Source: Longimicrobiales bacterium (GTDB lineage Bacteria > Gemmatimonadota > Gemmatimonadetes > Longimicrobiales > Gaopeijiaceae). From it: a stretch of DNA of 64,000 nt. Positions 6,208 to 39,402 of this stretch are shown here, piece after piece. The stretch lies in the NCBI GenBank assembly GCA_951828585.1, contig OX639991.1, positions 3,764,001-3,828,000 on the forward strand, read 5' to 3'. Positions within the stretch are counted from its first letter, which is position 1; each line of letters opens with the position of its first letter. The notes under the pieces were generated by a model, which saw nothing but the letters and a program-made list of their open reading frames with translations, was not told the origin of the DNA and did not search any database. Both the position numbers and the translations under genes were made by a program.

Positions 6208-7028
6208 GGACGTGCGGATTCGCCGCCCTCGCGGTCATGCTGGCAACGGGCGGTTGCGACTACATCGCGTCGCCCGATGCTCTGGAACTGGATCCGGACG
6301 TGGTCAGCATCGCAATCGTGCTGGCCGCCGGTGAGAGGGAAGCCTTCATGCTGGCGGGCTATCCCCACCGCGCTCCATCGGCTTCGCCACCGGAAGTGAC
6401 CGCCACCCTGCTTGGCCCGGACTGGCAGGCGGCCTTCTCGGACACGACGGATCTCGAAGGCGGCTGCGGCGGCGGTCCGACGTATTGGCCCATGCCGATG
6501 GTCTGCCTACGGGCCCCGCTCCCGGAACCAATCCGCGAACGAACCCCCTATGGACTCGACGGCAGGGCCCCGCAAGGCTCCTTCACCGGCCTCGCCACCG
6601 TGCCCTCCGCTCCTGTGATTCTGGTGCCGACGGATACGTTCCGGCTGTCGGCAACCCGGGATTCGGAGCACTGGTCCTGGATCCCGATCCGCTACCACGC
6701 GCCCGAAGATGTGGGTACCCTGCGCGCGGAGATGCTGGTAGTGCTCAGCGACAGCACCGGGACGGAGTCGGCGTGGATCCCGGTATGGCCCCTGTACCTG
6801 GACGTGAACGCCTCGGCGGACACCTTGAACTTCGACCGGGACGAGAGGTTGCAATGGGGCTCGCTGCACCTCGTGGGGATCGGGTGGCAGTACACCAATT
6901 TCCTGGAGGCGTCCGAGAAACACGATCGACAGCCCAGCTTCGGCATCAAGGGCGAGGGCGTCTATGGTTATTTCGACGGGAGCGCCAGGTCGCGCCCCAT
7001 CCATCTCACCGTCGAGGATCCACCCTGA
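6204..7028 (+). CDS. Lipoprotein partner of TonB receptor, copy 2
   Basis: This is a 274-aa paralogue of the product of 2998-3843, with unknown function. The TTG start at 6204 overlaps the receptor stop TGA exactly as in copy 1. The signal region runs LRTCGFAALAVMLATGGC, with the lipobox Cys at residue 18. Shared blocks with copy 1 include LDPDVVSIAI, AGEREA, the WQYTNFLE-type segment and YGYFDG near the C-terminus, so the second half of the cassette is conserved and open in both copies. Its last 23 bp overlap the convergent M20 peptidase gene. An outer-membrane lipoprotein working with the receptor is the natural guess, but the substrate is not known. Confidence 0.75.
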   Translation: MRTCGFAALAVMLATGGCDYIASPDALELDPDVVSIAIVLAAGEREAFMLAGYPHRAPSASPPEVTATLLGPDWQAAFSDTTDLEGGCGGGPTYWPMPMVCLRAPLPEPIRERTPYGLDGRAPQGSFTGLATVPSAPVILVPTDTFRLSATRDSEHWSWIPIRYHAPEDVGTLRAEMLVVLSDSTGTESAWIPVWPLYLDVNASADTLNFDRDERLQWGSLHLVGIGWQYTNFLEASEKHDRQPSFGIKGEGVYGYFDGSARSRPIHLTVEDPP

Positions 7029-8247
7029 CCGCCCCCTGCACCGCCGGGACCAGCTCCAGATAGCGGCCGTAGCCCCACTGCGCCTCTTCCAGATCCAGCC
7101 GCTCGGTGTTGGTGTGCGCGTAGCGCTCCTCGCCCGGAGCGAAGCCGATCGTGGGTATGCCGCGCACGCCACAGGTCCAGCCGCCGTCGGTGGCGAAGGT
7201 CCACGGGCGAACGCGGGCTGGGGCGCCGTTGCCGTTGCGGGTGCCGACCGCGCGGGCCGCCGCCGTGACGATGGGATCGGCGGCGTCCATGAGGAAGCCA
7301 GGGCTGAAGATACGGCGTGCCTCTTCAGCGCCCGTGTAGGCGCGCTGGAGTTCGGTGGCGGTGCGGACCTGCACGCTTTCGGCGGCGCCTGGCCAGGTGG
7401 TCCTGTCGGCGCGGTCCAGGTAGGGCCGGAGCGACTCGCGTACCCGGGCCACAAGGGATTCCTCGGTGTCCTCGGGCAGGATGCGCCAGTCCAGGGTGAT
7501 GGTGACCCGGTCCGGGATGACGTTCAGGCTGGCGGGGACGGCGTCGATGCCCGTCGCCACGACGGACGAGCGTCCCAGGATCGGGTCCGCGCCTTGACGC
7601 GCGGCCAGGTCACGGACGCCGGCCAGGATCGCGGGGACGAGATCGAGGGCGTTTCGAGCGCGGTCGGGTGCCGACGCGTGGCCGGCCAGGCCGTGCGCGA
7701 CGATCTCGACTTCGCTGCGGCCGCGGTGGCCGATCGCGATGTCGCCCTGCGTCGACTCGCCGATGATCACCACATCGGGCTTCAGGCCGCCATCGGGCCG
7801 CACGAGGTGGTCCATCCCCCACCCCCCCCGCTCCTCGAACACAGGGTGCGCCACGATGATGTCCCCCCCCACCCCACCCTTCAGCGCCGCCCCCACATGC
7901 ACCTGCAACGCCAGCGGCCCCTTGATGTCCATCGCGCCCCTGCCGTGCAGACACCCCCCGGCGATCACCCCGTCGAATGGCGGGTATTCCCACTCGGCCG
8001 GATCCCCCGCCGCAACCATGTCCAAATGCGCGCTCAGCATGACCGAACCACCACCCCCCTCCCCCTTCACCACCCCGATCACGCTCCCCAGTTCGTCCGT
8101 CCACACCTCGTCGTAGCCCAGTCCCTCCATCTCGGCCACCACGCGCCGCGTGAGCTCCCCCTCCTCGCCCGGCAGCGACGGGATGCGGATCAGGTCCTGC
8201 GCGAACGCGATCGCGCCATCGAAGGACGCGGACCGGGACCCCGTCAT
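7006..8247 (-). CDS. M20 family metallopeptidase / deacylase
   Basis: This is a cytoplasmic zinc-dependent hydrolase of the ArgE/DapE/carboxypeptidase G2 group, 413 aa. SAHLDMV carries the first metal ligand His and catalytic Asp. GRGAMDIKG carries the bridging Asp. PVFEERGG supplies the acidic pair at the place where family members usually have EE, and [12 protein letters not shown] belongs to the dimerisation domain. I chose ATG 8247 because AAGGGGGG lies about 6 nt upstream; an in-frame GTG at 8268 would add seven residues. The family includes peptidases, N-acyl amino acid deacylases and desuccinylases, and nothing here fixes the substrate. It is separated by 49 bp from the pyrophosphatase gene upstream and may be its last co-transcribed gene. 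Confidence 0.85.
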
Positions 8248-32077: not shown

Positions 32078-33553
32078 ATGTCAGAATCGGCCAAGCTTTC
32101 GTATAGACCATTCACAGAACCCCAAATGGGCAAATCCACCTCGCAGATACACGAATACGACCTCGTCGCCATCGGCGGCGGCACCGGCGGCCTGGTCACG
32201 GCCGCGGGCGCGGCCTACCTGGGCATGAACCCGGCGATCGTCGAGAAGCACGCACTCGGCGGCGACTGCCTCTGGACCGGCTGCGTCCCCTCCAAGGCCC
32301 TCATCGCCTCGGCGCGTCTCGCACGGCAGATGGACCGCGCCGCCGGCCTCGGCCTCATTCCGAACGGGGCCCGCCACGACTTCTACGCCGTCATGGAGCG
32401 GATGCGGGCCGCGCGCGCCACCGTCGCGCACCACGACGACCCCCAACGCTTCCGCGACATGGGCGTCGCCGTGCACTTCGGGGCCGCGCGCTTCCTCGAT
32501 CCCGACACCGTCGAGGTCGACGGCGAGGGCACCCTGCGCTCCAAGCGTTTCGTCATCGCCACGGGCGCCGTGCCCGCCACCCCCCCCATCCCCGGCCTCG
32601 CGGAAACCGGCTACTGGACCTACGAGACCGTCTTCGACGAGAACGAGCTCCCCGATTCGATCGCGATCCTGGGCGGCGGGCCCATCGGGATCGAATTCGC
32701 GCAGGTCTTCGCGCGCCTGGGGTCGAAGGTCACCATCCTCGAGATGATGCCCAGGATCCTGATCAAGGAGGACCGGGATGTGGCGACGTTCATGCAGAAC
32801 CTCCTCGAGGCGGAGGGGATCGGGATCCGCACCGGGGCCGCAGTGACCCGCGTAGGCTCGGAGAACGGGCGCGCGGTGATCGAGACGAACGACGGGGGCC
32901 GCATCGAGGTGGACCGGGTATTCGTCGCGACCGGGCGGCGTCCCTGCATCGACGGTCTGGACCTGGAAGCCGCCGGGATTCGGACCGGCATGGGCGCCGT
33001 CGTCGTCGACGACTACCTGCGCACCAGCTCCAGGTCGGCATGGGGGGTGGGCGACGTGACCGGTGGGCTCCATTTCACCCACGTTGCGGAGCAGATGGCC
33101 AAGGTTGCCATCCGCAATTCGGTCCTCCCCGTCAAGAAGAAGATCCGCTACGACAGCGTCCCATGGGTCACCTACACCGACCCCGAGGTCGCCCACATCG
33201 GCATGTCGGAAGACGAGGCCGAGGACGCCGGCGGCACCACCTACCGCTACGAGATGGACGACCTGGACCGCGCCATCGTGGACGGCTCGGCGGTGGGATT
33301 CGTGAAGATCTCGGCGGACCGCAAGGGCAAGGTGATCGGCGCGACCATCGTCGCCCACGGCGCCGGTGACCTTCTCATGCCCCTCGTCCTCGCGAAACAG
33401 CACGGCCTGAGCCTCAGCAAGGTCAACGGCACCATCTACCCCTACCCCACCATGGTCGAGGGGGTGAAGCGCGCCTCGGGCGAGTACATGCGCTCGCGCC
33501 TCGACACGGCTGGGGGAAGGACACTCAAGAGAATCATCAAATGGCTGAAATAG
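32078..33553 (+). CDS. FAD-dependent pyridine nucleotide-disulfide oxidoreductase (mercuric reductase-like)
   Basis: This is a 491-aa flavoprotein of the dihydrolipoamide dehydrogenase / mercuric reductase group. The FAD site is AIGGGTGGL, the redox-active pair lies in GGDCLWTGCVPSK, the NAD(P) site is ILGGGPIGIEFAQ, and FVATGRRP follows. The C-terminal dimerisation domain lacks a terminal Cys-Cys pair and has no heavy-metal-associated domain, so true mercury reduction is doubtful. An ATG at 32126 is an alternative start. It overlaps the next gene by 13 bp. Genes of this type often accompany the VTT and arsenosugar-type glycosyltransferase genes that follow. Confidence 0.85.
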   Translation: MSESAKLSYRPFTEPQMGKSTSQIHEYDLVAIGGGTGGLVTAAGAAYLGMNPAIVEKHALGGDCLWTGCVPSKALIASARLARQMDRAAGLGLIPNGARHDFYAVMERMRAARATVAHHDDPQRFRDMGVAVHFGAARFLDPDTVEVDGEGTLRSKRFVIATGAVPATPPIPGLAETGYWTYETVFDENELPDSIAILGGGPIGIEFAQVFARLGSKVTILEMMPRILIKEDRDVATFMQNLLEAEGIGIRTGAAVTRVGSENGRAVIETNDGGRIEVDRVFVATGRRPCIDGLDLEAAGIRTGMGAVVVDDYLRTSSRSAWGVGDVTGGLHFTHVAEQMAKVAIRNSVLPVKKKIRYDSVPWVTYTDPEVAHIGMSEDEAEDAGGTTYRYEMDDLDRAIVDGSAVGFVKISADRKGKVIGATIVAHGAGDLLMPLVLAKQHGLSLSKVNGTIYPYPTMVEGVKRASGEYMRSRLDTAGGRTLKRIIKWLK

Positions 33554-35067
33554 AACCACGGGGCAGAACCGGCGCCTGGCTGAAGCTGGGGGCCTTCGTT
33601 CTCCTCATCGTCGGCGGCTTTTTCGGCATCAAGGGGACACCGGCCGGACCGTACCTCACCCTCGAAGGCATCGGCGACGGAATCGAGTGGCTGAGAGGCA
33701 ATCCATGGGCCGCTCCGATCTTCGTCGGCATCTACGCCACCGCCACCGCGCTGGCGGTCCCCGGCACCATCCTGACGCTTGCCGGGGGTGCCGTCTTCGG
33801 ATTCTGGTGGGGGACCCTCTACAACTTCATTGCGGCAAACATTGGCGCCAACGCGGCCTTCCTCGTCGCCCGTTCACTGGGCGGGGACGCGGTGCGCCGC
33901 CTCATCGGAAAGGACTCCAAAGTGCTGAACAAACTGGATGGCATCGTCGAACAGCACGGATTCAGGGGACTGTTGACCCTTCGCCTGATCCCCCTCGCGC
34001 CCTTCAACGCCCTCAACTTCGGGTCGGGGCTCATGGCGCTCAAATGGCGTAGCTACGCGATCGCCACGCTGATCGGCATTCTGCCCGGAACCGCGATCTA
34101 CACCTTCTTCGCCGATGCGCTCCTGCAGGGCTCCCAGGAGGCGTCACGCGACGCGTGGTTGAATGTACTCCTGGCAGGCCTCCTCCTCGTCCTGCTCAGC
34201 TTCCTCCCCGCGATCCTGAAAAAGATGAATGTGCGACTCCCCGGCATGTCAACCATAGTTGTCTTTTTGTCAACCGCAGTTGTCACTATGGGATTCGCGG
34301 GCGGGCTCAGGACCGCTTCCGCGCAGCAGCTCCCGGACCACAGCGAGTTCACCGGCGTGCTGGCGCCCGTCGTGTTCGGTGCGCAGGTGGACTATGCGAA
34401 ACTGGCCGCGGACGACGCGGGGCTCCGGGCCTACCTGGACCGGCTCGCGGCGACGGATATCTCGGCGGTCACGAGCGCGTCGCGGGACGAGCAGCTCGCC
34501 TTCTGGATCAACGCCTACAACGCCTGCATGCTGAAGCGAGTCATCGAGCACTACCCGATCAAGAGGGCGGGCGGATTCCACGGGCTGAAGAACCGCGCCG
34601 CCGGACGGCCCGAAAACTCGGTCTGGCAGATCGAGGATGTCTTCACTGGCGACCATTGCGTCGTGGCCGGCGAGGAGCGTTCCCAAGATGAGATCGAGCA
34701 CGAAATCATCCGTCCCATGGGCGATGCGCGGATCCACCTGGCCGTCAACTGCGCCGCGTGGAGCTGTCCGCCGCTGATCGGCCGGGCCGACCTGCCGGAG
34801 ACGCTGGACGAGCAGCTGGACGAACGCGTGCGCGCCTTCATGATGGACCCCGCACACTTCGATGTGACGACCGAGGGGGACAGGTCGACCGTGCGCGTGA
34901 ACAAGGTGCTCGACTGGTTCAAGGAGGACTTCGGGGGGAACAACGACGGGATTCGGGCGTTCTTCGCGGGGTTTGCGGACGGACATTACCGGGAGGCGCT
35001 GCTGGATCCGGAGACGAGGGTGGAGTTTCACGAGTATGACTGGACGCTGAACGACATCGCGCGGTAG
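33541..35067 (+). CDS. VTT (TVP38/TMEM64)-DUF547 fusion protein
   Basis: This is a 508-aa two-part protein. Residues ~1-230 form a polytopic VTT/DedA-like membrane domain, with LAGGAVFGFWWG, NIGANAAFLVAR and LRLIPLAPFNALNFGSGL typical of TVP38/TMEM64. Residues ~280-460 match DUF547 (FWINAYNACMLKRV, HLAVNCAAWSCPP). Between them, starting at Met236, is a sequence with every feature of a cleavable signal peptide ending ASA (residue ~261), suggesting two formerly separate genes. An internal ATG at 34246 could still start the second part. The two domains occur as neighbours in other bacteria. The function is unclear, and membrane transport of a metabolite is possible. Confidence 0.82.
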   Translation: MAEIEPRGRTGAWLKLGAFVLLIVGGFFGIKGTPAGPYLTLEGIGDGIEWLRGNPWAAPIFVGIYATATALAVPGTILTLAGGAVFGFWWGTLYNFIAANIGANAAFLVARSLGGDAVRRLIGKDSKVLNKLDGIVEQHGFRGLLTLRLIPLAPFNALNFGSGLMALKWRSYAIATLIGILPGTAIYTFFADALLQGSQEASRDAWLNVLLAGLLLVLLSFLPAILKKMNVRLPGMSTIVVFLSTAVVTMGFAGGLRTASAQQLPDHSEFTGVLAPVVFGAQVDYAKLAADDAGLRAYLDRLAATDISAVTSASRDEQLAFWINAYNACMLKRVIEHYPIKRAGGFHGLKNRAAGRPENSVWQIEDVFTGDHCVVAGEERSQDEIEHEIIRPMGDARIHLAVNCAAWSCPPLIGRADLPETLDEQLDERVRAFMMDPAHFDVTTEGDRSTVRVNKVLDWFKEDFGGNNDGIRAFFAGFADGHYREALLDPETRVEFHEYDWTLNDIAR

Positions 35068-35124
35068 GGGGATGGTGCGGCGGCGGGGACTGGAGACGGG
35101 CGAACCGGGCCGGGTTGTCGCCAA

Positions 35125-36537
35125 GTGGCCGGTGACGGGCCGAGTGACGGGGTGACGTTCTCGGGGGAGCCGGTCCACTCGCGGTCCGCCGAGATCGGGG
35201 TGGTGATTCCGGCGTTGGACGAGGAGGAGAGTCTTCCCGGGCTGTTGGGGGATCTGTCGGGGTTGGGCCTCGAGCGTGCGGTGGTGGTGGTTGATGGGGG
35301 GTCGGGGGACGGGACGGTGGCGGCCGCGAGGGCCGGGGGGGCGATGGTGATGAGGAGCCGGCAGGGGCGTGCCCGGCAGATGAACGCGGGGGCCGCGCTG
35401 TTGTCCACGCGGTGGCTGCTCTTTCTGCACGCGGACTCGCGGGTGGGGGACGAGGCGTTGCGGGCGATCGAGGGGCATGTGCGGGGGGGGCGGCGGGAGG
35501 CGGCGTATTTCGGGTTGACGATCTCTCATCCGCACTTCTACTACCGCGTGATCGAGGGGGGACAGCGGGTGCGGGAGCGGCTGTCGGGGCTGGTTTATGG
35601 GGACCAGGGGTTGCTGATTCGGCGGGATCGTTTTTTCGGTGCGGGCCCCTTCCCCGACGAGCCGATCATGGAGGACGTGATCCTGAACCGGCGGTTGCGG
35701 GGGGAGGGGGGGCTGGTGCGGCTGCCCGCGTCGATCTCCACCAGTGCGCGCCGGTATGAGGAGGAGGGGCGGGTGCGGGGGTTGCTGCGCAATGTGGCGC
35801 TGATGAGCCGGTTTCTGGCGGGGGGGGAGCCGGGGGAGCTGGCGGCGAGGTATCCGGCGCGCAGGTGGAGTCGCGGCGAGGATGGCGTGTCTTCGCGCGG
35901 CGATGAAGGCCGCGCGACGCTTCTCGTCTTCGCGAAGGCACCGAGGCCAGGTGAGGTCAAGACGCGGCTGGCGCGAAGCCTGGGGCGCGACGACGCACCC
36001 GAATACGACAAGGCCGCTGCGCTATACCGGCAGATGGGAAGGATGATTGCGGACGCGGTGGCTGAAGCGCCCGCCACCGTTACCGTGTGCTACGATCCCG
36101 CGGACGCGGAGGCGGAGATGCGCGACTGGCTCGGGTCGGCGGGAGCGCGGTACTGGCGGCAGGGCGAGGGCGACCTGGGTGAGCGCATGTCACGCATGTT
36201 CACGCGCGCACTCCTGGGCGCCGAGCGCGTCGTCGTGATCGGCACGGACACCCCCGCAGTTGACACGCGGACGATCACGCGCGCCCTGGCCGCGCTCGGC
36301 ACCGCCGATGTCGTGCTGGGGCCGTCCCGTGACGGAGGGTACTACCTGCTGGCCCTGTGCGAGCCGCATCCGAGCCTCTTTGAAGGGATCGAGTGGAGTA
36401 CCGGGTCGGTCCTGGCCGCAACGGTGGCCCGGGCAGGGGCGCTGGAATTGCGGGTCACCTTCCTGGAGGTCGAAACCGATGTCGACACTGCCAGGGATCT
36501 CGCGCCGGAGGTGACGAGTGCGATGGAATCGGGATGA
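35125..36537 (+). CDS. Fused GT2 (TIGR04283-like) and DUF2064 (TIGR04282-like) glycosyltransferase
   Basis: This is a 470-aa fusion. Residues ~22-240 are a GT-A glycosyltransferase (VVIPALDEEESLPGL, VVDGGSGDGT, LFLHADSRV) like TIGR04283. Residues ~262-460 are a DUF2064 nucleotidyl/glycosyl transferase (LVFAKAPRPGEVKTRL, VIGTDTPAVDT, GPSRDGGYYLLAL) like TIGR04282. Both families are annotated in arsenosugar biosynthesis loci, usually as separate adjacent genes. The start is GTG 35125, with another GTG at 35152 possible. Neither ArsM nor the radical SAM ArsS is in the window, so the arsenosugar role is inference from family names only. Confidence 0.82.
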   Translation: MAGDGPSDGVTFSGEPVHSRSAEIGVVIPALDEEESLPGLLGDLSGLGLERAVVVVDGGSGDGTVAAARAGGAMVMRSRQGRARQMNAGAALLSTRWLLFLHADSRVGDEALRAIEGHVRGGRREAAYFGLTISHPHFYYRVIEGGQRVRERLSGLVYGDQGLLIRRDRFFGAGPFPDEPIMEDVILNRRLRGEGGLVRLPASISTSARRYEEEGRVRGLLRNVALMSRFLAGGEPGELAARYPARRWSRGEDGVSSRGDEGRATLLVFAKAPRPGEVKTRLARSLGRDDAPEYDKAAALYRQMGRMIADAVAEAPATVTVCYDPADAEAEMRDWLGSAGARYWRQGEGDLGERMSRMFTRALLGAERVVVIGTDTPAVDTRTITRALAALGTADVVLGPSRDGGYYLLALCEPHPSLFEGIEWSTGSVLAATVARAGALELRVTFLEVETDVDTARDLAPEVTSAMESG

Positions 36538-36564: not shown

Positions 36565-37104
36565 TCATGCCCCCTGAACTTGTTCCGGGCTACTCTGCTC
36601 CTGGATGGCGGCCAGCAGCCTCGCCTCCATGCCCTCCCGGTCCTTGCGGGCGCGGTCGAGCCGGCCGTCAAGGCGCTTCTCCGCTTGCTCCAGTCCGTCC
36701 CTGAACCGCTTCTCCGCTTGCTCCAGTCCGTCCCTGAACCGCTTCTCCGCTTGCTCCAGTCCGTCCTGAAACCGCTTGTCCGCCAGCTCCAACCGTTCAC
36801 CGACCTCTTCCCGCATCCGGTCCAGTCCGCTTTCGAGGCGCTGGTCCGCACGATCCAACCGCCCACCAACATCTTCTCGCATTCGGTCGATCCGGTCCCC
36901 GAGGGTCTTCAACCCATCCTCGATATGCTTGAAGTCGTTTGCCTTGAGCCGGTCATACAAGCTGTCCACCGCATCCCTGGCAGCCCTCTCGGCGACGGGT
37001 TGGAACATTCGCAACAGCGCCCAGAATGCCCCCGCGACCGATCCCGCCACGCCCACCAGCAATGCCAGGGTGGGCAGCACATCTCCCCATTCCGGCCAAG
37101 TCAT
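36565..37104 (-). CDS. Membrane-anchored coiled-coil protein
   Basis: This is a 179-aa protein from ATG 37104 (AGGAAGGGG upstream). A single hydrophobic segment (residues ~10-30, PTLALLVGVAGSVAGAFWAL) is followed by a long charged helix. From about residue 105 it carries 11-residue units FRDGLEQAEKR repeated three times, plus degenerate ones, encoded by 33-bp DNA repeats. Hendecad periodicity fits a right-handed coiled coil. The function is unknown. The whole is reminiscent of small phage or envelope spacer proteins, but there is no phage context. Confidence 0.65.
   Translation of the reverse strand: MTWPEWGDVLPTLALLVGVAGSVAGAFWALLRMFQPVAERAARDAVDSLYDRLKANDFKHIEDGLKTLGDRIDRMREDVGGRLDRADQRLESGLDRMREEVGERLELADKRFQDGLEQAEKRFRDGLEQAEKRFRDGLEQAEKRLDGRLDRARKDREGMEARLLAAIQEQSSPEQVQGA
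36674..36772 (-). repeat. Three tandem 33-bp units in a coiled-coil gene
   Basis: Units start at 36674, 36707 and 36740 and are nearly identical; a fourth, degenerate unit follows. Each encodes one 11-residue hendecad (GLEQAEKRFRD register), so changes in unit number keep the frame and alter only rod length. Confidence 0.9.
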
Positions 37105-37436
37105 CTGGACACCCCTTCCTCCCTGTGGTTCCCGCCGAGCGCTACCGCAGCGGACACAAGACACCTGTGTAACATGATCCTACTTCGATGGACCGTCAAA
37201 GGGCAATTGGAGTCGGGCTCGGTCAGCTTCCCCGAAAGGCCCTCTTCTCCAGAGCCCTCCGTGGTCTCCGAGATAGGATCGGGCCGGAGGGCGGGCGCAC
37301 GAATAGTCGGATGGGACCAACTTCTTCTCGGGGCCATGGAGCCCCACGCCGACACGTGCCGCTTTGCCCGATTACGAGCTGCGGGCGTGGCTTCAGACCG
37401 GCTCCGTGACGAAGGGGACCCGGCCGGACAAAGCGA
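37105..37436 (+). other. Intergenic stretch, no gene recognised
   Basis: About 330 bp lie between the start of the coiled-coil gene and the end of the small lipoprotein gene. The open frames here look like random GC-rich frames: no ribosome site, signal peptide or known motif was found, and no RNA or terminator was recognised. Confidence 0.5.
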
Positions 37437-37989: not shown

Positions 37990-39402
37990 TCAGCGACGCT
38001 GGTACGCCTGCCAGGTACCGGGCCTGACAGGCACATGCAGCACGTCGAACGGGGCCTCGGCGGAGCGATTCGCAAACAAGGGCACGTTCTCGTGTTCCCC
38101 GACTCGCACGATGTCGCTGCAATTCCTTGGTGAAGGGTCGCCCGTTCGTACGTATTCCCCACCGCCAAAGCGAATCGGATCGCCTGATTCAAACCATTCA
38201 TGCCCCTCCGCGTAACTCCCCTCGAACACCAGGCCGGGCGGCAGCTCCCGAACGGGGATCCACGGGGGACCAACCAAGGTGTCCCCCGCTGGCGTCACCC
38301 GTACGTCGACACTCTTGCCGGTCGCAAGACAAAGCGTTGCCGAAGTCCCCTCCGGGACCTCCCGGTCCGCCTGCCGGACCACCACCACCGTATCGGGCGG
38401 CGGCGCCGGCAGCGTCACCGTATCCGGTGCGGGGGCCCGCCGTCCCCGGCAGAGCGCCCTCAGCCCGCCACAGAAGGCAACCGACCCCAGCACACCGAAC
38501 TTCCTGGAGCGGAATGTGGTCTCCCCGTCATACTGAAGCCCCAGCGCGAAGGCGCCCACCCGGATCCCCCCCAGGTCGATCTGCACGCCCGCGTTGGCGT
38601 CGAAGCCGTTGAACTCCGCCATCAGGTTCACCAGCCGGCGGTCCCCCAGACCGAAGTGGACGGCTGCCCCCGCGAAGACCCCGCCGGAAGATGTCTCGCG
38701 GTAGAACTCCAGGTCGCGGCCGGCCTGGAAGAGCCCCCCACCCCAGCCCGCGTGCAGCGTCACGTCGTAGGGCGCCGAGCCGGCGAAACCGGGAAAGACG
38801 AGCGTCCCCACGAGGTAGGGGCTAAAGTTCCCGTTGAAGTCCTCCGCGCCGGGCGTACTCCGGCTCACCCGCCAGTCCGGATACCCAAGCCGGTTCGGCT
38901 GAACGTCGCCGGACTCCCCGTCGCCGAAGGAGGGCGAGGTCACATGGCGGAAGCCCGCGGCCAGCCCGGGGCCCCGGCCGTCCGGACGAAGCAGCGCCAA
39001 TCGCCCGAAGGTCCCGTAGATCCTGCCGCCTCGGTCCCGGTCCGCGAAGTGCTGCAGGGTGGCGCCTACCTCCGCGCGGTCGAAGAGGCCGAGCGCGAGC
39101 GAGCCATCGGAGAACCATCGCTCGAACCGCCCACCCGCCGGGATCGTTTGCCCCGGGCTGTCGGGAACGACGGTCTCGGCGGCCGACACCCCGAAGCCGG
39201 AGTACGTGACGGTAAAGGCCAGGTGGGGGAGCACCAGCGCGACCGGGATGTCGAGGAGGCCCGAGCCGTAGCGGAGCGTGGCGGGCATCGTGCCCAGGGT
39301 TTGGGCGGACGCCGGGGGGGCCAGGAGGGTGAGCGTCAGAAAGGCACAGGCGGGGATACGGCGCAACGTGTGCGGCAACCTCCCCGAACGGCTATCCCCC
39401 AT
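37990..39402 (-). CDS. Outer-membrane beta-barrel protein with extra C-terminal domain
   Basis: This is a 470-aa exported protein. The signal peptide ends around PPASAQ (residue ~34). Residues ~35-320 have the alternating, Gly- and aromatic-rich strands of an outer-membrane porin-like barrel (GYPDWRVSRS, YDVTLHAGWGGGLFQAG). A Pro-rich linker (PAPDTVTLPAPPPDT) leads to a ~120-residue periplasmic or surface domain with two Cys. Its start overlaps the end of the ccmD gene by 11 bp, so it may be read from the ccm transcript. No family name is justified. Confidence 0.65.
   Translation of the reverse strand: MGDSRSGRLPHTLRRIPACAFLTLTLLAPPASAQTLGTMPATLRYGSGLLDIPVALVLPHLAFTVTYSGFGVSAAETVVPDSPGQTIPAGGRFERWFSDGSLALGLFDRAEVGATLQHFADRDRGGRIYGTFGRLALLRPDGRGPGLAAGFRHVTSPSFGDGESGDVQPNRLGYPDWRVSRSTPGAEDFNGNFSPYLVGTLVFPGFAGSAPYDVTLHAGWGGGLFQAGRDLEFYRETSSGGVFAGAAVHFGLGDRRLVNLMAEFNGFDANAGVQIDLGGIRVGAFALGLQYDGETTFRSRKFGVLGSVAFCGGLRALCRGRRAPAPDTVTLPAPPPDTVVVVRQADREVPEGTSATLCLATGKSVDVRVTPAGDTLVGPPWIPVRELPPGLVFEGSYAEGHEWFESGDPIRFGGGEYVRTGDPSPRNCSDIVRVGEHENVPLFANRSAEAPFDVLHVPVRPGTWQAYQRR

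Follow-up and report, generated by a model that had tools for sequence, protein, structure and literature searches.

A compact TIGR04283-TIGR04282 and VTT-DUF547 gene module in a Longimicrobiales bacterium, possibly an arsenic-independent relative of arsenosugar gene sets

Introduction

The closest described systems to the locus reported here are the arsenosugar gene sets of Burkholderia glumae (pBIN_2) and Cupriavidus sp. KK10 (p1), in which genes of the families TIGR04283 (GT83; GT, glycosyltransferase) and TIGR04282 (GT82) are adjacent, a VTT-type membrane protein and a disulfide oxidoreductase (FAD) are fused or adjacent, and ArsS and a nucleoside phosphorylase are present. We analysed a locus of three genes at positions 32078-36537 of a 64,000-nucleotide stretch (the window; bases 3764001-3828000 of the genome) from a Longimicrobiales bacterium of the phylum Gemmatimonadota, whose genome is a single contig of 4.47 Mb and 99.5% complete. 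The locus encodes a FAD protein, a VTT-DUF547 fusion and a GT83-GT82 fusion, and thus shares the GT pair and the VTT and FAD partners with the arsenosugar sets, of which that of Cupriavidus also has a DUF547 match. It differs from them in having neither ArsS nor a nucleoside phosphorylase, in a genome without ArsS and with only a remnant of ArsM. We regard the locus as a compact new form of this known gene set; in our judgement the chances are about even that it represents a compact, arsenic-independent form of a widespread five-part glycoconjugate module.

Conservation of the five-part module and its fusions

The three genes all lie on the plus strand, as a sequence-only reading of this DNA had stated, with 13 bases shared by the first two open reading frames (ORFs) and 57 bases between the second and the third. 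The two fusions named in that reading are borne out, since both recur as intact single frames in relatives, and its family assignments hold, with all four fused domains above their profile cut-offs (Table 1). All three genes are under purifying selection: the ratio of nonsynonymous to synonymous substitution rates (dN/dS) was 0.14-0.34 by NG86 in 15 of 15 pairs, and YN00, computable for 8 of the 15, gave 0.03-0.16.

Conservation was assessed in 298 Gemmatimonadota genomes (the phylum sample), 98 of which matched the GT fusion at E ≤ 1e-15, a count that includes weaker matches with the two halves lying apart. Around such matches 60 loci from 59 genomes were fetched, and gene order was taken as the longest same-strand run per locus. 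The order FAD-VTT-DUF547-GT83-GT82 was found in 24 of the 60 loci, DUF547-GT83-GT82 in 16, FAD-VTT-GT83-GT82 in 5, and less in the other 15. Within its own family the module lies mostly between alaS/recA-side genes (RecA being recognised by reading the sequence) and the ccm cytochrome c maturation operon, and L108, L110, L111 and L115, which come from a different family of the class, also show this gene order. A further 80 named loci elsewhere, an uneven sample chosen by similarity to one divergent GT82, gave none with all five parts under the same run rule; VTT-FAD-GT82-GT83 was present in three (L166, Kiritimatiellota; L198, Verrucomicrobiota; L205, Planctomycetota), DUF547 in a run with GT82 in eight, and GT82 alone or the GT82-GT83 pair in 60. 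In Thermogutta (L156), DUF547-VTT-FAD lies upstream of an ArsM-like gene, which is below the ArsM cut-offs, and of GT82-GT83.

Fusions of the same parts were found in several combinations. One-frame GT83-GT82, in the window order, was present in 29 of the 60 phylum loci and in L232, and one-frame GT82-GT83 in 26 of the 80 named loci (counting L222, where the GT83 match comes in two pieces) and in one locus of a different class of the phylum, L126. These reverse fusions, found in Thermodesulfobacteriota, Cyanobacteriota, Planctomycetota and others, join the same two families in one polypeptide, but many of their genomes carry ArsS and they stem from a separate fusion event, the opposite domain orders implying at least two joining events. 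VTT-DUF547 was in one frame in 21 of the 60 phylum loci, one of them outside the family (L115), and VTT-FAD in the B. glumae plasmid. Since GT82 with GT83, VTT with FAD and VTT with DUF547 are each fused somewhere, there is strong evidence for one pathway, which agrees with the common pathway that the sequence-only reading drew from the fusions, and the five domains form a real module. Neither the module nor its fusions were described in the open-licence literature searched.

In four loci of the phylum (L114, L115, L120 and L132), a gene for a class IV (branched-chain type) aminotransferase, profiled for L120, adjoins FAD or is flanked by GT83 and ArsS.

Distribution of ArsS and ArsM

ArsS was not found in the genome, where the best match to TIGR04167 reached 48 bits against a cut-off of 300. 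A hidden, low-scoring ArsS was rejected, as the two radical SAM matches in the genome are an Rv1681-like and a MoaA-like protein. The Rv1681-like protein was also rejected as an ArsS replacement, its likeness to the radical SAM part of the L112 and L113 fusions described below being 34-37% over about 157 residues. Counted at E ≤ 1e-40, ArsS was absent from all 18 genomes sampled from the genus, 17 of which have a GT match, and present in 25 of the 298 genomes of the phylum sample (24 over cut-off). The cross table of the phylum sample held 23 genomes with GT match and ArsS, 75 with GT match only, 2 with ArsS only and 198 with neither (odds 30, Fisher p 2e-10; the co-occurrence statistics here and below ignore kinship). 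In other words, 23 of 25 ArsS genomes have a GT match and 75 of 98 GT-match genomes are without ArsS: ArsS nearly implies the GT pair, and the GT pair does not imply ArsS. At locus level, the adjacent same-strand GT pair was in ArsS-less genomes in 42 of 51 fetched loci, as were 21 of the 24 five-part loci (the remaining three being from G271, G225 and G145). In a GT82 tree of 137 rows, whose bootstrap had not settled, the window falls in a 19-row clade that also holds one named record, a Gemmatimonadetes metagenome-assembled genome (L232). A clean split of this tree into ArsS-bearing and ArsS-less parts was rejected, as its starred branches force at least 10 label changes, and ArsS has therefore been gained or lost repeatedly.

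The ArsS genes of nine named genomes (G299, G301, G308, G315, G329, G347, G366, G372 and G375), of which eight are of deltaproteobacterial type and one is actinobacterial by record title, contain an in-frame TGA, as expected for selenocysteine.

ArsM was likewise not found in the genome, with a best NF008823 match of 28 bits against a cut-off of 263 and no match to NF040538. At the place where congeners carry ArsM, a remnant was located in L261 (G000:C1:420000-436000; locus bases 6912-7147), from which about 650 bases have been lost internally: tblastn recovered only the final 71 residues, and by eye about 15 start residues stand in another frame and the cysteine motifs fall in the lost part. 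The adjoining gene is 88% identical and still open. The three cysteine motifs of the enzyme are present in every ArsM locus from the genus and its closest relatives (18 of 18), and in the six congeners examined ArsM stands at the end of a conserved gene row, after genes of beta-propeller type and unnamed ones. In the phylum sample ArsM (NF008823 at E ≤ 1e-25) occurred in 221 of 298 genomes, in 61 of 98 with a GT match and 160 of 200 without (odds 0.41); it is commoner in GT-less genomes and was rejected as a general partner of the GT pair in the phylum.

The three window genes are under purifying selection although ArsM is deleted. One explanation is that the module was left by an arsenosugar-making ancestor and is now decaying, and the deletion of ArsM and the lack of FAD and VTT at the locus in some relatives (the 16 of 60 with only DUF547-GT83-GT82) would agree with this. 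Decay is nevertheless very improbable, as dN/dS is well under 1 in all three genes, the motif residues are invariant, and the module is kept through a genus without ArsS.

Alternatively, the pathway could make arsenosugars after all, with arsenic entering by a non-homologous route, such as another radical SAM enzyme or the uptake of methylated or adenosylated arsenic released by neighbouring organisms, and with the loss of ArsS being recent or irrelevant. Several results favour this and weigh against an arsenic-independent locus. Module members lie near ArsS or ArsM-like genes in several phyla, and ArsS is present in 54 of the 80 named GT82 genomes (35/50 plus 19/30). Among the 30 genomes with one-frame GT83-GT82 (this one counted), 25 have ArsM and two have ArsS (G092 and G187, on other contigs, with TIGR04169 beside it in both and an MTAP-like gene in one; MTAP, methylthioadenosine phosphorylase). 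ArsM is also carried by 16 of the 18 sampled genus genomes, so that an arsenic link is possible in congeners, and G141 and G238 carry, next to the GT pair and a PHO4 gene, a radical SAM-ArsM fusion that is distinct from ArsS. Set against these points, ArsS is lacking from 28 of the 30 fusion genomes and throughout the genus sample, ArsM shows no enrichment in genomes with a GT match, it has been deleted here while the three genes stay under selection, and in congeners it belongs to another conserved gene row. We therefore regard an arsenosugar product of this locus as unlikely.

The radical SAM-ArsM fusions of L112 (2223-4724, G141) and L113 (1693-4236, G238), recognised by profiles and by ORF similarity, respectively, are in genomes without ArsS, their neighbours being the GT83-GT82 pair and a phosphate transporter of PHO4 type; they possibly represent another organoarsenical route.

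The sequence-only reading had raised arsenosugar synthesis, and the known ArsM-ArsS route is not supported in this genome: its TIGR04282 and TIGR04283 genes are present, and its ArsS, ArsM and adjacent phosphorylase are not. The same reading would have been refuted by a lack of arsM and arsS both here and in all genomes with the same fusions; that lack holds only in part, as 2 of the 30 fusion genomes have ArsS and 25 have ArsM. The arsenic label fails in this genome, and applying it across the phylum is unsafe. NCBI annotation names both families after arsenosugars. PMC11237643 treats TIGR04282 as a trait of arsenic stress tolerance in a survey of soil metagenomes, and PMC13077682 reads both genes in a bioremediation strain as a sign of arsenic sequestration; should many carriers be without ArsS, as they are in the phylum sample, such inferences from family names are unsafe.

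The TIGR04282 domain as a probable nucleotidyltransferase

The AlphaFold model of the GT83-GT82 fusion (mean predicted local distance difference test score (pLDDT) 85.3, predicted template modelling score 0.85) shows two alpha/beta domains. Residues 20-239 resemble GT2 enzymes, namely 6p61, WrtF, TarS/TarP, dolichyl-phosphate mannose synthase and GpgS (Z 15.8-20.2), and in this GT83 domain the residues H102, A103 and D104, which we take to be a metal/nucleotide-binding DxD-like motif, are the same in all 29 of the fused proteins that were aligned. Residues 261-470 resemble 3cgx (Z 25.3), 7p97 (19.3), 2i5e (18.6) and 6bwh (17.4), with root-mean-square deviations (rmsd) of 2.2-2.6; 2i5e was deposited as a probable nucleotidyltransferase, and 7p97 and 6bwg/6bwh are 3-phospho-D-glycerate and 2-phospho-L-lactate (phosphoenolpyruvate) guanylyltransferases of the same fold. 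A profile of 12 GT82 domains found 7p97 (3-phosphoglycerate guanylyltransferase) and 6bwg at E 6e-7, and the 7p97 alignment spans all four motifs in the same order (KTRLA, DLP, P..DG and DVD..DL). The domain itself has the invariant columns P..G.VKTRL, GTD, GP..DGGYYL and D.D...D, scores 115.6 bits with PF09837 (cut-off 25.8), and exceeds the gathering score of PF01983 (CofC; 26.6 versus 22). The GT82 domain is thus probably a CofC/FbiD-like nucleotidyltransferase, with nucleotide activation as the simplest reading of sequence and model; a TIGR04282 gene is also called fbiD in passing in PMC8801600.

The sequence-only reading had assumed two transferase steps, both by glycosyltransferases, which is doubtful given the nucleotidyltransferase-like second domain. 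Two ordinary glycosyltransferases adding two sugars in turn, as in bifunctional chondroitin/heparosan synthases, would give a short glycan or glycolipid; NCBIfam names both families glycosyltransferases, and fold comparison over both domains also returns two-domain polymerases such as 2z86 and 8vh8. These two-domain matches superpose poorly, however (rmsd 9.5-18.4), and the second domain alone resembles CofC/FbiD-type enzymes at rmsd 2.3-2.6, with the four-motif 7p97 alignment and the PF01983 score on the same side, which makes a pair of ordinary glycosyltransferases improbable.

For the nucleotidyltransferase itself, the contrary points are that the nearest solved relative, 3cgx, is of unknown function, that the guanylyltransferases are only 20-21% identical to the domain in structural alignment, that 6bwg aligns significantly through the first two motifs only, and that the domain falls below the cut-off of TIGR03552 (CofC; 40.9 versus 105), so that the CofC/FbiD likeness is a claim of working alike only. 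A common fold with guanylyltransferases does not prove the reaction of the domain.

A nucleoside phosphorylase would be a suitable supplier for such an enzyme. The product of ArsS is adenosylated arsenic, according to PMC12159101, and a phosphorylase acting on it would yield a ribose-1-phosphate, a natural substrate of an activating enzyme. B. glumae and Cupriavidus have a methylthioadenosine phosphorylase gene next to the GT pair, Owenweeksia has one for a purine-nucleoside phosphorylase flanked by GT82 and FAD, and an MTAP-like gene stands beside TIGR04169 and ArsS in G092 (L129). This adjacency, a criterion inferred from four loci rather than established, was seen in only 4 of 162 loci scanned (L234, L235, L230 and L129), the L129 copy being under the MTAP cut-off (144 versus 274.85), and MTAP was over cut-off in none of 21 genomes of the genus, both of which tell against the scheme. 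No MTAP-like ORF was found in the window at E ≤ 1e-3, and the genome has two phosphorylase-like matches elsewhere, both under the MTAP cut-off.

The VTT-DUF547 protein and the oxidoreductase

By eye, many stand-alone DUF547 ORFs of relatives start like signal peptides (e.g. L099 and L110), with lipobox-like cysteines at the start in L156, L165 and L200; those of L178, L194 and L235 show no such start because the match begins inside the domain. In most VTT-DUF547 fusions the linker carries a hydrophobic stretch that ends AxA-Q-like just before DUF547 (also by eye), and the linker is probably the fossil signal peptide of a formerly separate DUF547 protein. From these starts and the linker stretch, DUF547 is predicted to lie outside the cytoplasm and VTT to be a membrane domain. 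Lipid movement is a known activity of VTT/DedA proteins from other systems. The DUF547 domain is invariant at WINxYNACM, HC and NCAAxSCP in 21 aligned sequences, and its part of the predicted model is mostly near or over 90 in pLDDT (mean of the whole fusion 78.3). Folded as a whole, the fusion gave no match in the Protein Data Bank (PDB) at E ≤ 0.001, and a fold-based function for DUF547 and VTT was dropped; papers naming DUF547, mostly plant studies, yielded no bacterial function.

The FAD protein is a flavoprotein of the MerA and lipoamide dehydrogenase kind. It resembles mercuric reductase MerA (5x1y, 1zk7) in core sequence, in the redox Cys pair and in a Tyr at the base-His position, its best solved relative being 5x1y (1.8e-72). 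From the sequence, we take CxxxxC to be the redox motif and Tyr to replace the usual base His (YPYPTMVE). Among the matches listed, the closest NCBIfam models were PRK06370 (502.9 bits, cut-off 620) and MerA TIGR02053 (370.6, cut-off 454.45), and none of the 25 reached its cut-off. Unlike MerA, the protein is thus under the MerA cut-off, has no C-terminal Cys pair, presumably a MerA feature, and in the full module stands beside VTT.

Proposed mechanism

From the domains, their order and fusions, the selection on them and the absence of ArsS and ArsM, we infer the following steps and product. The GT82 domain would couple a nucleotide to a sugar-1-phosphate or some other small phosphate, and the fused GT2 domain of GT83 would transfer the activated sugar to a membrane or glycerol-type acceptor, with the fusion channelling the intermediate between activation and transfer. 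The VTT protein may shift the lipid-linked product within the membrane or to its other side, DUF547, tethered to VTT and outside the cytoplasm, may process or place it, and the FAD oxidoreductase may, on the cytoplasmic side, provide or preserve a thiol or metalloid in its reduced state. It counts further against this scheme that the roles suggested for DUF547 and VTT come from topology and from general knowledge of their families.

Where a bacterium also has ArsM, ArsS and a nucleoside phosphorylase, 5-deoxy-5-dimethylarsinoyl-ribose-1-phosphate would enter the module, which would then yield arsenosugars; in this genome it would have to be fed a different sugar. We consider it nearly, though not quite, an even call that TIGR04282 and TIGR04283 are the core of a general pathway independent of arsenic, with TIGR04282 acting not as a glycosyltransferase but as a nucleotidyltransferase that forms a nucleoside diphosphate sugar and is paired or fused with its GT2 user, that arsenosugars arise where ArsM, ArsS and a phosphorylase feed this core, and that in this genus the product is a periplasm- or membrane-bound glycoconjugate made from another 5-deoxyribose or sugar phosphate. 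No description of the late steps of arsenosugar synthesis was found in the literature searched, and the fused protein offers a single expressible polypeptide for probing them, as nucleotidyl activation followed by transfer.

Features of the locus and neighbouring genes

Table 1 Features of the locus (window positions)
Feature	Position	Strand	Basis
FAD/NAD(P)-dependent disulfide oxidoreductase, MerA-like	32078..33553	+	Pyr_redox_2/Pyr_redox_dim; CxxxxC, presumed redox motif
VTT-DUF547 fusion protein, 508 aa	33541..35067	+	PF09335 and PF04784 in one frame
VTT membrane domain (TVP38/TMEM64/DedA-type), residues 73-191	33757..34113	+	PF09335, 97.7 bits (cut-off 33.9)
Hydrophobic linker ending AxA-Q	34237..34326	+	Alignment; N-termini of stand-alone DUF547 ORFs by eye
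DUF547 domain, residues 312-433	34474..34839	+	PF04784, 80.4 bits (cut-off 27)
TIGR04283-TIGR04282 fusion protein, 470 aa	35125..36537	+	Both profiles in one frame
TIGR04283 domain (GT2-type glycosyltransferase), residues 24-243	35194..35853	+	200.9 bits (cut-off 182); HAD invariant
TIGR04282/DUF2064 domain, residues 266-459, probable nucleotidyltransferase	35920..36501	+	189.6 bits (cut-off 134)

Within the oxidoreductase gene a tRNA-Ala was called on the minus strand (32345-32437), presumably a false positive. Adjoining the module on the minus strand (36565-37164) is a gene for a short coiled-coil-like protein with near-identical repeats (RFRDGLEQAEK), which has no NCBIfam match. Further downstream, also on the minus strand (37990-39402), a protein of 470 residues is encoded, the window copy of which has no NCBIfam match and the L094 copy no Pfam or NCBIfam match; it is kept in 27 of the 81 loci compared.

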